DNA from: Erysipelotrichaceae bacterium OttesenSCG-928-M19
GTDB taxonomy: Bacteria; Bacillota_I; Bacilli_A; JAJDGJ01
Assembly: GCA_030265585.1 (NCBI GenBank)
Contig: JAJDGJ010000003.1
Location: 1 to 58,761, forward strand
Direction of reading: 5' to 3'
DNA: 58,761 nt
Shown: positions 27,757 to 54,603 of the stretch, one piece after another
Position numbering within the stretch: the stretch's first letter is position 1
Layout: the number at the start of each line of letters is the position of its first letter
The notes under the pieces: model-generated
What the model was told of the DNA's origin: nothing
Seen by the model: the letters and a program-made list of their open reading frames with translations, nothing else
The model's database searches: none
Position numbers and translations under genes: made by a program

Positions 27757-27787
27757 ATTGACTAGAATAGTCAATCAAGTTATAATA
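27757..27787 (+). promoter_or_regulatory. Promoter with overlapping palindromic operator
   Basis: TTGACT (27758-27763) and TATAAT (27782-27787) with an 18-bp spacer form a strong promoter for the riboswitch transcript. A perfect inverted repeat, ATTGACTA (27757-27764) and TAGTCAAT (27768-27775) with a 3-base centre, covers the -35 box. That placement suits a repressor. The binding protein is not identifiable; it does not match the NrdR box. Confidence 0.7.
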
Positions 27788-27793
27788 CTATTG

Positions 27794-27970
27794 AAGTTAA
27801 TATTAAGGGAATGTGGTGTAAATCCACAACAGCCCCACCGCTACTGTAACATTAAATTAATGGAGTCAGGATACTTAATAATAACTAACAAAAACAGTAT
27901 TTTTCGGAGGGAATTTGCTGGTTTATGATAGAATATTGCCATAAACCATACAACCTTCGGGTTGTTTTTT
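27794..27970 (+). ncRNA. Cobalamin riboswitch with intrinsic terminator
   Basis: The conserved core AGGGAATGTGGTGTAAATCC is followed by the B12 box ACAGCCCCACCGCTACTGTA and GAGTCAGGATAC. These are the diagnostic cobalamin-aptamer elements. A hairpin GGTTTATG/CATAAACC (27920-27947) comes next, then the terminator CAACC-TTCG-GGTTG with a T-run (27951-27970). The layout predicts that cobalamin binding ends transcription before the DUF4430-nrdD-nrdG operon. The short leader suggests one of the compact cobalamin-riboswitch subclasses. Confidence 0.93.
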
Positions 27971-46594: not shown

Positions 46595-46800
46595 AAATAA
46601 AAATCTTTGTTGGACAACACAACAAAGACAATAAAAAAACATCACTTGTTGAGTTTTAGCACTGAATAACGTAAAAAACATAATGTTTTTAGCTACTTTA
46701 TTGAAAGCCTTAAGCCGACAATCACTGTTCTACCCATTGGCATCTTTCGATGTTTTTGAGCAGTAGCCTATATTTAGACAGGAGCCTCACCTAACGATTA
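46595..46800 (-). ncRNA. M-box magnesium riboswitch with terminator
   Basis: The minus strand holds the M-box hallmarks in order: CGTTAGGTGAGGCTCCTGT (46778-46796), ACTGCTCAAAAACATCGAAA, GATGCCAATGGGTAGAACAG and, at the end, CAGTGCTAAAACTC (46651-46664). A terminator candidate, CTTTGTTG pairing with CAACAAAG (46605-46627) plus ATTTTTATTT, follows 24 bases later. High Mg2+ should fold the aptamer and end transcription before mgtA. This and the leader ORF account for the gene-free 46548-46980 stretch. Confidence 0.94.
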
Positions 46801-46824
46801 ATAAACTTAGTATTAAATAGATTT

Positions 46825-48191: not shown

Positions 48192-50963
48192 TTATTTTTT
48201 TTCATTTACTAAACTATAAATTTGATAATCAAATTCATTATCTAGTAGTGGTTTTTCAGCAAATACATAATTTTCAAAGATTACCTTAAAACAACTAGCA
48301 AATAATCTTTCCTTTAAATAAAAGTTTTTATATGATTGATACTCCTCAAACATTGAGGCATTCTCTTGGGCCTTCTTTAAATCATTATTTAAATAATAAC
48401 TAATTGCTAGAAAACCTCTTGTTACAAGTATTGCATCAACTAATAAATTATCTTTTAATAACAGACGTAAACAACGATTGAAACTTTCAATTGCTTCGTG
48501 ATATTTCTTATCAGCTAAATAGACTTGACCAAGGTAGTGATAAATACTAGCTTGGAAAGTACCATCAATATCAAAGTTAGTATTGTTAGTTATACTTAGA
48601 CCTTTCTTTAAATAATAAATAGCTTTCTCTGGATTGTTTTTAACCATATAATAATAACCCCTAAAACGTGAATAAGTTATCATTGACTTTGTATAGTCAA
48701 TTGAGAAAGTATCTAATAATTGAATTGATTTAAGCAATTTATTCAAAATCGTATCTAACATATTATAATCATTTGCATTAATTGAATAGTAGATCATCAA
48801 ATAATATGTATTATGTCTTTTGATTGTGTCTTCCATATTATCAGTAACACTCATTAAAATATTAATGGCTTCGTAGGATTGCTCATTATCAACTTTTTGT
48901 AAATAATAGCGAGCCTTCATCGTATAAAACAAGATTGACATTTCCTTAAAATAAGAAGTGAAAACATTATTGCTCGTTAGATTATTTAGTTCTTTTTCTA
49001 AATCATTTAATATATAGTTGAAATTTTCATCTTGATCCAAATAAAGTGAGTCAATTAAAGAGACACCCATTATTGAAAACAATTCACATGGAGCATAGTT
49101 TTTTATAGAATAGTATTTAATTTTATATTCAATTTCTTTAATTTTATTATTAGCTGCTTGATAATGCTCTAATAAACTTTGATATAAATATAATGGAGAT
49201 TCAACATCAAGTGAATTAACTTCTAAGTTGTTAGCAATCGTATTATGTAATTGTCTTTTAATATACTTATTCAAGCTATTATAAACATAGTCTTTAAAAA
49301 GATCGCTTGAAATTTGATAAACGATACTTTGATTACTTTTATATGAAATAACAATTTCATCTTCTTCTAATTTTCTTAAAATCTCAATTAATTCCAAATC
49401 AGAAAATGTAACCAATGTTTTTAAATTTTTAAGTGATGTTGAACGAACAAAAATAGCTAATAGATCAATAACTCTTTTTTCATTTAATGATAAATTTTCA
49501 TAAATTCGCGCAAAAATCAACTCATTACTTAAACTATCTACATTATCATATTTTAAATAATGCTTAATAAAAAATGGATTGCCTTGGGATTTCTTAAAAA
49601 TAATATCAATATAACTATCAGAAATAATCTTCTGATATTTCTTTCGTTGTAGATAATCTTTAACATCACTACGCAACCATGGCGTAATTGTAAGTAATTG
49701 GGTATGTTCAAACATAGCAACTTCATTTTGCTTTGATTGCGTCGTTGTGAAAATAATAAATAAATTATCTAAACTAGCCTCACAAATCTTTGCAAAGAGC
49801 TTTTGAGAAGAAATATCTAGATAATTAATATCTTCTATTATTAAAACAATTTTATTGTTAGCTAGTAATTTTTCTAACATTTTAATAAAATATTGATCAA
49901 AATAATAATAACGTTTTTCAACTTTCATTGCTGCATTAGCATCTCTTAAAGAGAGTGTTAAAATGTCATTAAAACTTAAAGTGTTAAATGTTGTCGCTAA
50001 TTCAGAAATAAATGGCTCTATACTACGATAAACATAATCACGGTCATTTTGATAACAATGAATTTTAAAAACATGGACATCCTTTTTTATATAAGCTAAA
50101 AATTGATTAATTAAGAAACTTTTTCCTAAACCAGTTTCACCACTAATAATATAAGAAGCTGAATTATTATATTTGATTAAACGATCATATGAAGCAATAA
50201 GCTTTTTTAAAATAACTTCATTCTCAGTACTTATATTCGTAATTCTTTTGTTTTTTATCATCGATAATTTCATATTAACAATTTTTTCATATAGCTTTAC
50301 AGTTTCTTGTTCACATTTAATTTTTAAATTATTACTTAAAATATTGCTTATTGTACTATAAGCCTCAATCGCCTTATCATATTCATTTCTCTTTAAATAT
50401 ATTTTCATTATTTCGCGATACGATTCTTCATCATATTCATAATACTTTACTTTTTGAACAAGCATTTTTAATGCCGCATCCAAATCATCACTTTCTTGAT
50501 ATTCAAAAATTAATTTATCACAAGCATCAATATAAATATTAAGTAACTGTTCTTGAATTTTATTCATCCATTTTTGAAAGTTTGTCATTTTAATAAGTTT
50601 TAAATTGTCTAAAAACTTATCATATAATTCAATTACTTCGTGTGGATCATTTGATTTAATAAGTTTAAGATAATCACAATTATAAATATAATTAGGATTT
50701 AAAGCAATAATATTATTTCCTTCAGTTATAATAATATCCTTATCTAAAACCTTTCTTAATGTATACAAAGCATTTCTTAAATTCTTTCTAACTTCAGTTT
50801 CATCAACATTCTCCCACAACAAAGAAGCAACCTCTTTTCGTTGCACTTCATTATTAATTAATAAGTAAGCAAATAGTATTTCAGTCTTTTTAAATGGAAA
50901 TTTAACTTCTTCATCATTTCTCTTTACTTTTACTTCACCAAGTAAATTAATATCAAATTTCAT
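48192..50963 (-). CDS. SARP/BTAD-AAA-TPR transcription regulator
   Basis: 923 residues. An OmpR-type winged helix (about 1-95, FPFKKTEILFAYLLINN ... RNALYTLRKVLDK) leads into a bacterial transcriptional activator domain (about 100-240). An AAA-type ATPase follows with Walker A GETGLGKSF (K281) and Walker B IVLIIEDINY (D378). The rest, from about 600, is helical TPR-like repeats, as in SARP/LuxR-type giant activators. Such proteins are best known from Actinobacteria, but related ones occur in some Firmicutes. The ligand and targets are unknown. It is 48 bases upstream of rex on the same strand. Confidence 0.82.
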   Translation of the reverse strand: MKFDINLLGEVKVKRNDEEVKFPFKKTEILFAYLLINNEVQRKEVASLLWENVDETEVRKNLRNALYTLRKVLDKDIIITEGNNIIALNPNYIYNCDYLKLIKSNDPHEVIELYDKFLDNLKLIKMTNFQKWMNKIQEQLLNIYIDACDKLIFEYQESDDLDAALKMLVQKVKYYEYDEESYREIMKIYLKRNEYDKAIEAYSTISNILSNNLKIKCEQETVKLYEKIVNMKLSMIKNKRITNISTENEVILKKLIASYDRLIKYNNSASYIISGETGLGKSFLINQFLAYIKKDVHVFKIHCYQNDRDYVYRSIEPFISELATTFNTLSFNDILTLSLRDANAAMKVEKRYYYFDQYFIKMLEKLLANNKIVLIIEDINYLDISSQKLFAKICEASLDNLFIIFTTTQSKQNEVAMFEHTQLLTITPWLRSDVKDYLQRKKYQKIISDSYIDIIFKKSQGNPFFIKHYLKYDNVDSLSNELIFARIYENLSLNEKRVIDLLAIFVRSTSLKNLKTLVTFSDLELIEILRKLEEDEIVISYKSNQSIVYQISSDLFKDYVYNSLNKYIKRQLHNTIANNLEVNSLDVESPLYLYQSLLEHYQAANNKIKEIEYKIKYYSIKNYAPCELFSIMGVSLIDSLYLDQDENFNYILNDLEKELNNLTSNNVFTSYFKEMSILFYTMKARYYLQKVDNEQSYEAINILMSVTDNMEDTIKRHNTYYLMIYYSINANDYNMLDTILNKLLKSIQLLDTFSIDYTKSMITYSRFRGYYYMVKNNPEKAIYYLKKGLSITNNTNFDIDGTFQASIYHYLGQVYLADKKYHEAIESFNRCLRLLLKDNLLVDAILVTRGFLAISYYLNNDLKKAQENASMFEEYQSYKNFYLKERLFASCFKVIFENYVFAEKPLLDNEFDYQIYSLVNEKK

Positions 50964-51030: not shown

Positions 51031-51063
51031 TAAAAAAAACGCACTTAGTATAACTAAATGCGT
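51031..51063 (-). terminator. Terminator of the FAD enzyme-purA operon
   Basis: ACGCACTTAGT (51039-51049) pairs with ACTAAATGCGT (51053-51063) with one wobble pair and a 3-base loop; a run of T residues follows on the minus strand. It overlaps the stop codon of the last gene. Confidence 0.88.
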
Positions 51064-51347
51064 ACGATAAAATAGGCAAGAAACAATAATAAAATCATGA
51101 ATATAACAGAAAATAAATAGAAGATTATCATTAATGATTTGTCTTGTTTACTCATTTTAGGTTTAGCTTTAGGATTGTAATCGACCTCTAATGGATCAAC
51201 TTCCTTAAAATTTAATTTGTATTCCGTAACAAGAGCTAAAGCACTATCATAATCAACCTTATGAATATCCATACATAATTTAATTGCTTTTTGTTTATTA
51301 TTCCTTTTAATTTGTTTTATTACTTTTTTATCTAACTTTATTTCCAT
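51054..51347 (-). CDS. Small membrane-anchored protein with bL12-C-like domain
   Basis: 97 residues. The N-terminal half, KKVIKQIKRNNKQKAIKLCM then DYDSALALVTEYK, resembles the ribosomal-protein L7/L12 C-terminal-type pattern (I-K-x-x-x-x-x-K-A-I-K ... A-x-x-x-V). Small bacterial proteins of that type are common but of unknown role. The C terminus (about residues 75-95) is one membrane segment after a basic linker (PKAKPKMSKQDK). ATG 51347 lies one base after the purA stop codon, and no strong ribosome site is present, so it is coupled to purA. The function is unknown. Confidence 0.6.
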   Translation of the reverse strand: MEIKLDKKVIKQIKRNNKQKAIKLCMDIHKVDYDSALALVTEYKLNFKEVDPLEVDYNPKAKPKMSKQDKSLMIIFYLFSVIFMILLLFLAYFIVRI

Positions 51348-51348
51348 T

Positions 51349-54070
<2,722 letters not shown>

Positions 54071-54093
54071 TTTATAGGGCCTCCCTTGCCAAT

Positions 54094-54162
54094 AAAAAAA
54101 GGTAACAAAAAGCAAATATAACGCTTGTTACCTATTGTATGAAAGTCTTCTTCCATACCACC
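54094..54162 (-). ncRNA. Unassigned structured leader or small RNA ahead of the purA operon
   Basis: From a near-perfect promoter the transcript begins about 54162 and contains a hairpin (GTATGGAA/TTTCATAC, 54137-54158, loop GAAGAC). It then contains a strong terminator (GGTAACAA/TTGTTACC, 54101-54132, T-run 54094-54100). Twenty-three bases later lies the FAD-enzyme start codon. I cannot match it to a known riboswitch, and no antiterminator is obvious. The transcript stopping at the terminator would be about 69 bases. A 10-codon ORF (MVVWKKTFIQ) starts at its very 5' end, possibly without a leader. It covers most of the gene-free 54071-54396 stretch with its promoter and that of yozE. Confidence 0.6.
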
Positions 54163-54168
54163 ATCTAA

Positions 54169-54197
54169 ATTATACAACACAAGTTATAGAGTGTCAA
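54169..54197 (-). promoter_or_regulatory. Consensus promoter of the purA operon leader
   Basis: Exact TTGACA (54192-54197) and exact TATAAT (54169-54174) with a 17-bp spacer on the minus strand. This is the strongest vegetative promoter in the window. Confidence 0.88.
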
Positions 54198-54285
54198 ATT
54201 TAAATTTTAAAACTTTAAAATTAAATTATTATTAGTAATTATTAATTATAACTATCTTTACTATACTATTAATATTTTTAATAAA

Positions 54286-54396: not shown

Positions 54397-54603
54397 ATGA
54401 CATTTAAAGAATGGATTAAAGAATTTGAAGATCGAGATCATCCATTTGCGGAAATTGCCAAAGCAATTTATGAAGATAATGATTTCCCAACTGACGATGA
54501 TTATGAAAAAATAATTGATTATATCAACAAGCGTGTTGATGATAATAGTAAAATTCAATCATTTAACGATGCAATTGAAGAATATAATAGAACAAAAAAA
54601 TAA
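54397..54603 (+). CDS. YozE-like (UPF0346) small protein
   Basis: 68 residues. TFKEWIKEFEDRDHPFAEIAKAI followed by DNDFPTDDDYEKIIDYI matches the YozE SAM-like helical family of Firmicutes, small proteins of unknown function with an E/D-rich surface. ATG 54397 follows AAGAAAGGAGTTTTAACA; the longer upstream frame has no such site. It is monocistronic with its own terminator. Confidence 0.8.
   Translation: MTFKEWIKEFEDRDHPFAEIAKAIYEDNDFPTDDDYEKIIDYINKRVDDNSKIQSFNDAIEEYNRTKK

Follow-up and report, generated by a model that had tools for sequence, protein, structure and literature searches.

The leader of the COG2509-purA operon of Erysipelotrichaceae bacterium OttesenSCG-928-M19, which lies at 54197-54071 on the minus strand of the stretch analysed (58,761 nucleotides, hereafter the window), is likely, on the evidence of sequence comparison, to be a transcription-attenuation leader, and probably works as an on/off or dimmer device for purA expression. 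Its terminator sits between the operon promoter and the first gene, and this is conserved in one congener. The parts of the leader, their order, and their conservation in the congener are read directly from the DNA; termination in the cell and variable read-through are what we infer beyond that anatomy. In the mechanism proposed here, a very strong sigma-70-type promoter would start an RNA of roughly 69 nt that would fold into a 5′ hairpin and then an intrinsic terminator; much of the transcription would end ahead of the first gene, and COG2509 and PurA would be made by read-through only. The succession of promoter, structured leader, and terminator directly before the first Shine-Dalgarno is shared with intrinsic-terminator attenuators of biosynthetic operons in general; the window leader differs from them in that neither a leader peptide nor an antiterminator fold was found in it, nor any known site for a ligand or protein.

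The first gene of the operon (52634-54070, minus strand) encodes a 478-aa enzyme whose COG2509 label comes from the first-pass annotation; the Pfam domain FAD-depend_C and a distant PDB relative, 3nlc, support an FAD-dependent protein but nothing more specific. The second is purA (51349-52632, minus strand), encoding adenylosuccinate synthase, whose step lies at the branch point where AMP is made at the cost of IMP and GTP. A 105-aa ORF with a hydrophobic C-terminal segment (51054-51371, minus strand) overlaps the 3′ end of purA and has no match in Pfam or NCBIfam, and directly downstream of the operon, on the same strand, lies a gene for a large, transcriptional-activator-like protein of 923 aa with BTAD, AAA_16, and TPR domains (48192-50963).

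The leader was examined on the minus strand of 54198-54071. Its promoter (54197-54169) agrees with the consensus at 12 of 12 positions, with an exact TTGACA as the -35 element (54192-54197) and, after a 17-nt spacer, an exact TATAAT as the -10 element (54169-54174), just as the first-pass annotation had read it; the 1.12 Mb assembly has only eight exact consensus promoters, while a reversed control pattern matches it once. The spacing from the -10 element predicts a transcription start at a G near 54162 (54161-54163). Hairpin 1, GUAUGGAAG-AAGA-CUUUCAUAC, follows at 54137-54158; the hairpin noted earlier is therefore present, although its loop is not the GAAGAC then described, as one further G-C pair closes and leaves AAGA. 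The terminator hairpin, AGGUAACAAGCG...UGCUUUUUGUUACCU, occupies 54100-54133 and can be written as AGGUAACAAGCG...UGCU-UUU-UGUUACCU, with 12 pairs, a bulge of three U, and a U7 tract directly after it (54094-54100), all of which is kept in the congener. The Shine-Dalgarno, AAGGGAGG, is read directly at 54080-54087, and the ATG of the COG2509-type gene stands at 54070, so that the coordinates agree with the earlier placing of the terminator within about 69 bases of RNA and 23 bases ahead of the first gene. These 23 nt leave no space for a second promoter, and the gene thus depends on read-through; moreover, the gene upstream of the leader, YozE-like with its start at 54397, is divergent, and consequently the terminator can act only on transcripts of the leader promoter.

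The predicted 70-nt leader RNA is exceptionally stable (-21.2 kcal/mol, z = -4.3), none of 200 shuffled sequences folding as well. When the terminator helix is forbidden, the best remaining fold is worse by 7.9 kcal/mol in the window and by 8.9 kcal/mol in the congener; no antiterminator fold competing with the terminator was found in either leader, where the alternatives cost 8-9 kcal/mol. Nearly all of the RNA is paired, the single-stranded parts being the first 4 nt or so and a gap of 3-5 nt that separates the hairpins. This bears on the alternative, also raised by the first-pass annotation, of a trans-acting small RNA of roughly 69 nt that lies before the operon by chance, with incidental read-through. 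The leader is indeed a complete transcription unit, from promoter to terminator, ahead of the gene, but the dependence of that gene on read-through, the Shine-Dalgarno placed right after the terminator, the unconserved sequence of hairpin 1, and, above all, the almost complete lack of a single-stranded stretch that could serve as a seed make such a small RNA unlikely.

Within the order, the comparison covered four genomes, with a single congener (G001), whose COG2509 protein is 83% identical to that of the window. In the congener, the promoter is kept exactly, including the same letters in TTGTGTTG-TATAAT-TTAGATGG, the terminator stem is retained letter for letter, and U7 is invariant, while the DNA ahead of the promoter is diverged; the blocks identical in the two species are TTGTGTTGTATAATTTAGATGG, GGTAACAAGCG, TTTTTGTTACCTTTTTTTATTG, and the -10/discriminator block. 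Hairpin 1 has kept its fold with a different sequence, GUACACAG/CUGU-UC-GUAC in the congener versus GUAUGGAAG/CUUUCAUAC in the window, through paired changes of U-A to C-G, G-C to A-U, G-U to C-G, and A-U to G-C. Eight pairs are retained despite eight changes at 16 stem positions (P = 0.0007 under a random-substitution model), a value obtained from one pair of sequences in a structural alignment chosen with a 2-nt bulge in the congener, and the congener hairpin taken alone is not exceptional, since 16% of shuffled sequences fold as well. The two genomes of the sister genus (G002 and G003, with loci L003 and L004; judging by isolate names, those of L039 and L040, these are termite-gut Bacilli) lack the leader, having neither hairpins nor a terminator before COG2509-purA, and pass from a near-consensus TTGACT-17-TATAAT promoter straight to the Shine-Dalgarno, which indicates that some lineage of this family either acquired the leader or lost it. 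The conservation of the hairpins in close relatives, proposed earlier as a check, is accordingly found for hairpin 1 (as a fold) and the terminator in the congener, but not in the sister genus. That only two species carry the leader, and that in the sister genus this operon has its near-consensus promoter but no terminator, count against attenuation.

The invariance of the terminator-stem letters while hairpin 1 drifted suggests that the letters themselves are constrained and not their pairing alone, and it is what favors reading the DNA inverted repeat GGTAACAA-N16-TTGTTACC as mainly a repressor operator, with termination secondary. Nevertheless, the U7 tract after the repeat is also invariant, the hairpin lies within the transcribed leader, and neither the window assembly nor the congener genome has the stem motif anywhere else, which makes an operator quite improbable. 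A DNA search recovered no further copies of the leader in its own genome, and among 395 genomes of the class the terminator pattern was found in the window and the congener only, besides one match with a different loop in G380.

The first-pass annotation had compared the geometry of the leader with that of a riboswitch or attenuator. The succession of promoter, hairpin, terminator, and gene is real and kept in the congener, and an attenuator is likely, but the aptamer part of the comparison is unsupported. A small purine- or redox-linked riboswitch, in which hairpin 1 would be the aptamer and the expression platform would be the terminator, would fit this geometry and the purine-linked operon, and guanine-type purine riboswitches do precede COG2509-purA in two other families; against it, the covariance search with Rfam gave nothing above gathering at the leader, and relaxing the E-value brought up no credible match, in line with the earlier failure to match it to a known class (purine, PRPP/ppGpp, preQ1, ZTP, SAM, fluoride, or c-di-nucleotide). 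No conserved nucleotides of a ligand-binding loop were found, the loop and stem letters of hairpin 1 differing between the two congeners; no antiterminator is predicted, the element was found in one genus only, and the order of the window already has purine riboswitches before purL, NCS2 purine permease, and adenine deaminase genes (as read from sequence), not before purA. Such a riboswitch is therefore improbable, and nothing found supports a new metabolite-sensing riboswitch here. Elsewhere in the window, Rfam models score above gathering for an M-box magnesium riboswitch (46634-46805, minus strand) and a cobalamin riboswitch (27772-27891, plus strand). ANTAR antiterminator sites consist of two hairpins with six-base loops, with A at position 1 and G at position 4, the second overlapping the terminator; by inspection, the loop of hairpin 1 has four bases in the window and five in the congener, and the leader is no such site. 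The literature search returned no paper on a bacterial purA leader, and the sole mention of COG2509 was irrelevant.

Attenuation coupled to translation of a short upstream ORF is very improbable. A possible ORF does start from an ATG inside hairpin 1 of the window (GGTATGGAAGAAGAC), and a conserved leader peptide ends at the terminator in another family (f11, below), but the congener has no ATG-initiated ORF downstream of its predicted start, and no Shine-Dalgarno stands at a proper spacing. As for the ATG in TTAGATGG, its position is no later than the predicted start, and translation from it gives unrelated peptides in the two species. No short ORF upstream of the terminator is common to the window and the congener, and both leaderless-ORF and upstream-ORF readings of the window leader were rejected on this comparison. 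Together with the energies obtained when the terminator helix is forbidden, this means that neither an intrinsic antiterminator nor a leader peptide was found for the putative attenuator. As neither a competing antiterminator fold nor a conserved leader ORF is found, control of the attenuator, if there is any, would most likely be external to the RNA, either a fixed partial read-through setting the level of the operon or a factor acting in trans on the terminator stem, and hairpin 1 would have a structural role at the 5′ end (protecting the RNA, causing a pause, or shielding that end) rather than being an aptamer.

Other families of Bacilli place terminator-bearing leaders of other kinds before COG2509-purA, and this was counted in favor of attenuation. 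In families f6 and f17, the purine riboswitch RF00167 precedes the operon (L008:3015-3116 and L016:3070-3171), with a third case, L015, recognized by sequence likeness; in L008 and L016 it is of the guanine type, as judged by eye from the C in the ligand-binding junction. These leaders share with that of the window the operon, the position, and the terminator end, whereas the window leader has no purine aptamer. In family f11, all five species having COG2509 (L005, L007, L009, L010, and L133) carry an ORF of 17-19 codons about 70-130 nt before it, with the pattern MK.TNLE..L..L.YI. (for example MKLTNLETKLTNFIYILSI), a good Shine-Dalgarno, and a stop codon that abuts a terminator hairpin, followed by the invariant palindrome TGGTATATACCA. 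This is a candidate leader-peptide attenuator of COG2509-purA; like trp-type leader-peptide attenuators, it has a terminator immediately before the operon, as in the window, but the window has no conserved ORF ending there. In family f8 (L006, L012, L014, L017, L134, and L135), most species have GTGCACC...GGTGC-type terminators, with GCACC/GGTGC arms 30-40 nt before COG2509, and several have an unconserved short ORF upstream.

A fourth kind of leader, a conserved RNA of about 93 nt that is not in Rfam, was found in 15 genomes of family f12 at E < 1e-8 (L013, L019, L088-L094, L096, L097, L099, L110, L114, and L115; for example L013:1396-1484). It precedes COG2509-purA or, in two genomes (G047 and G074, with no COG2509 match at the threshold used), purA directly, which indicates that it tracks purA. 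Its hairpin and terminator show modest covariation, with seven double-change cells, a count that 2 of 500 shuffles reached, and a covariation score that none of 500 reached. The RNA is predicted to be bistable between the pairings 1-2/3-4 and 2-3/1-4, with computed gaps of -4.8 to +7.5 kcal/mol, mostly near 0, and the 3′ arm and U-tract of its terminator can form pairs with the A-tract and segment 1. The evidence that 2-3/1-4 may form is its formability (95% of cells) and computed energy; it shows no double changes, as it should if segment 1 nearly repeats segment 3. A covariance model of this leader (R2), run over 217 genomes of the class, had a single match outside f12, at the leader of an asnA-like gene in G003, which was interpreted as a terminator in common (T-box-like, to judge from its sequence); matches upstream of trpS-like genes (L130 and L131) were weak. 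The f12 leader resembles that of the window in its strong promoter, predicted start near GG, hairpin 1, short linker, terminator, U-tract, A/T-rich spacer, and Shine-Dalgarno, but it is bistable and the window RNA is not, and in sequence the two do not match significantly (E 0.8-4): R2 gave no match at the window leader and E = 4 at that of the congener, and a model built from the latter two leaders (R1) gave only weak matches elsewhere, two of which fall exactly at f12 leaders (E = 0.8-3.3). It is unlikely that the window and f12 leaders are divergent forms of one unrecognised purA attenuator family that senses purine nucleotide supply without a classical aptamer; if they were, sensing might depend, for example, on the kinetics of RNA polymerase or on an RNA-binding protein that responds to purines and acts on the terminator stem. 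The f12 leader, which is not in Rfam and goes with purA, is the more novel lead and the strongest candidate among these RNAs for a new regulator.

The purine-linked signal suggested by the first-pass annotation is in this way backed indirectly, by the presence of purA in the operon, by the guanine-type riboswitches of relatives, and by the f12 leader that follows purA. In summary, several families of Bacilli have each a different terminator-type leader before COG2509-purA, which suggests repeated selection for attenuating the purA step, and these leaders are concrete RNAs for testing it.
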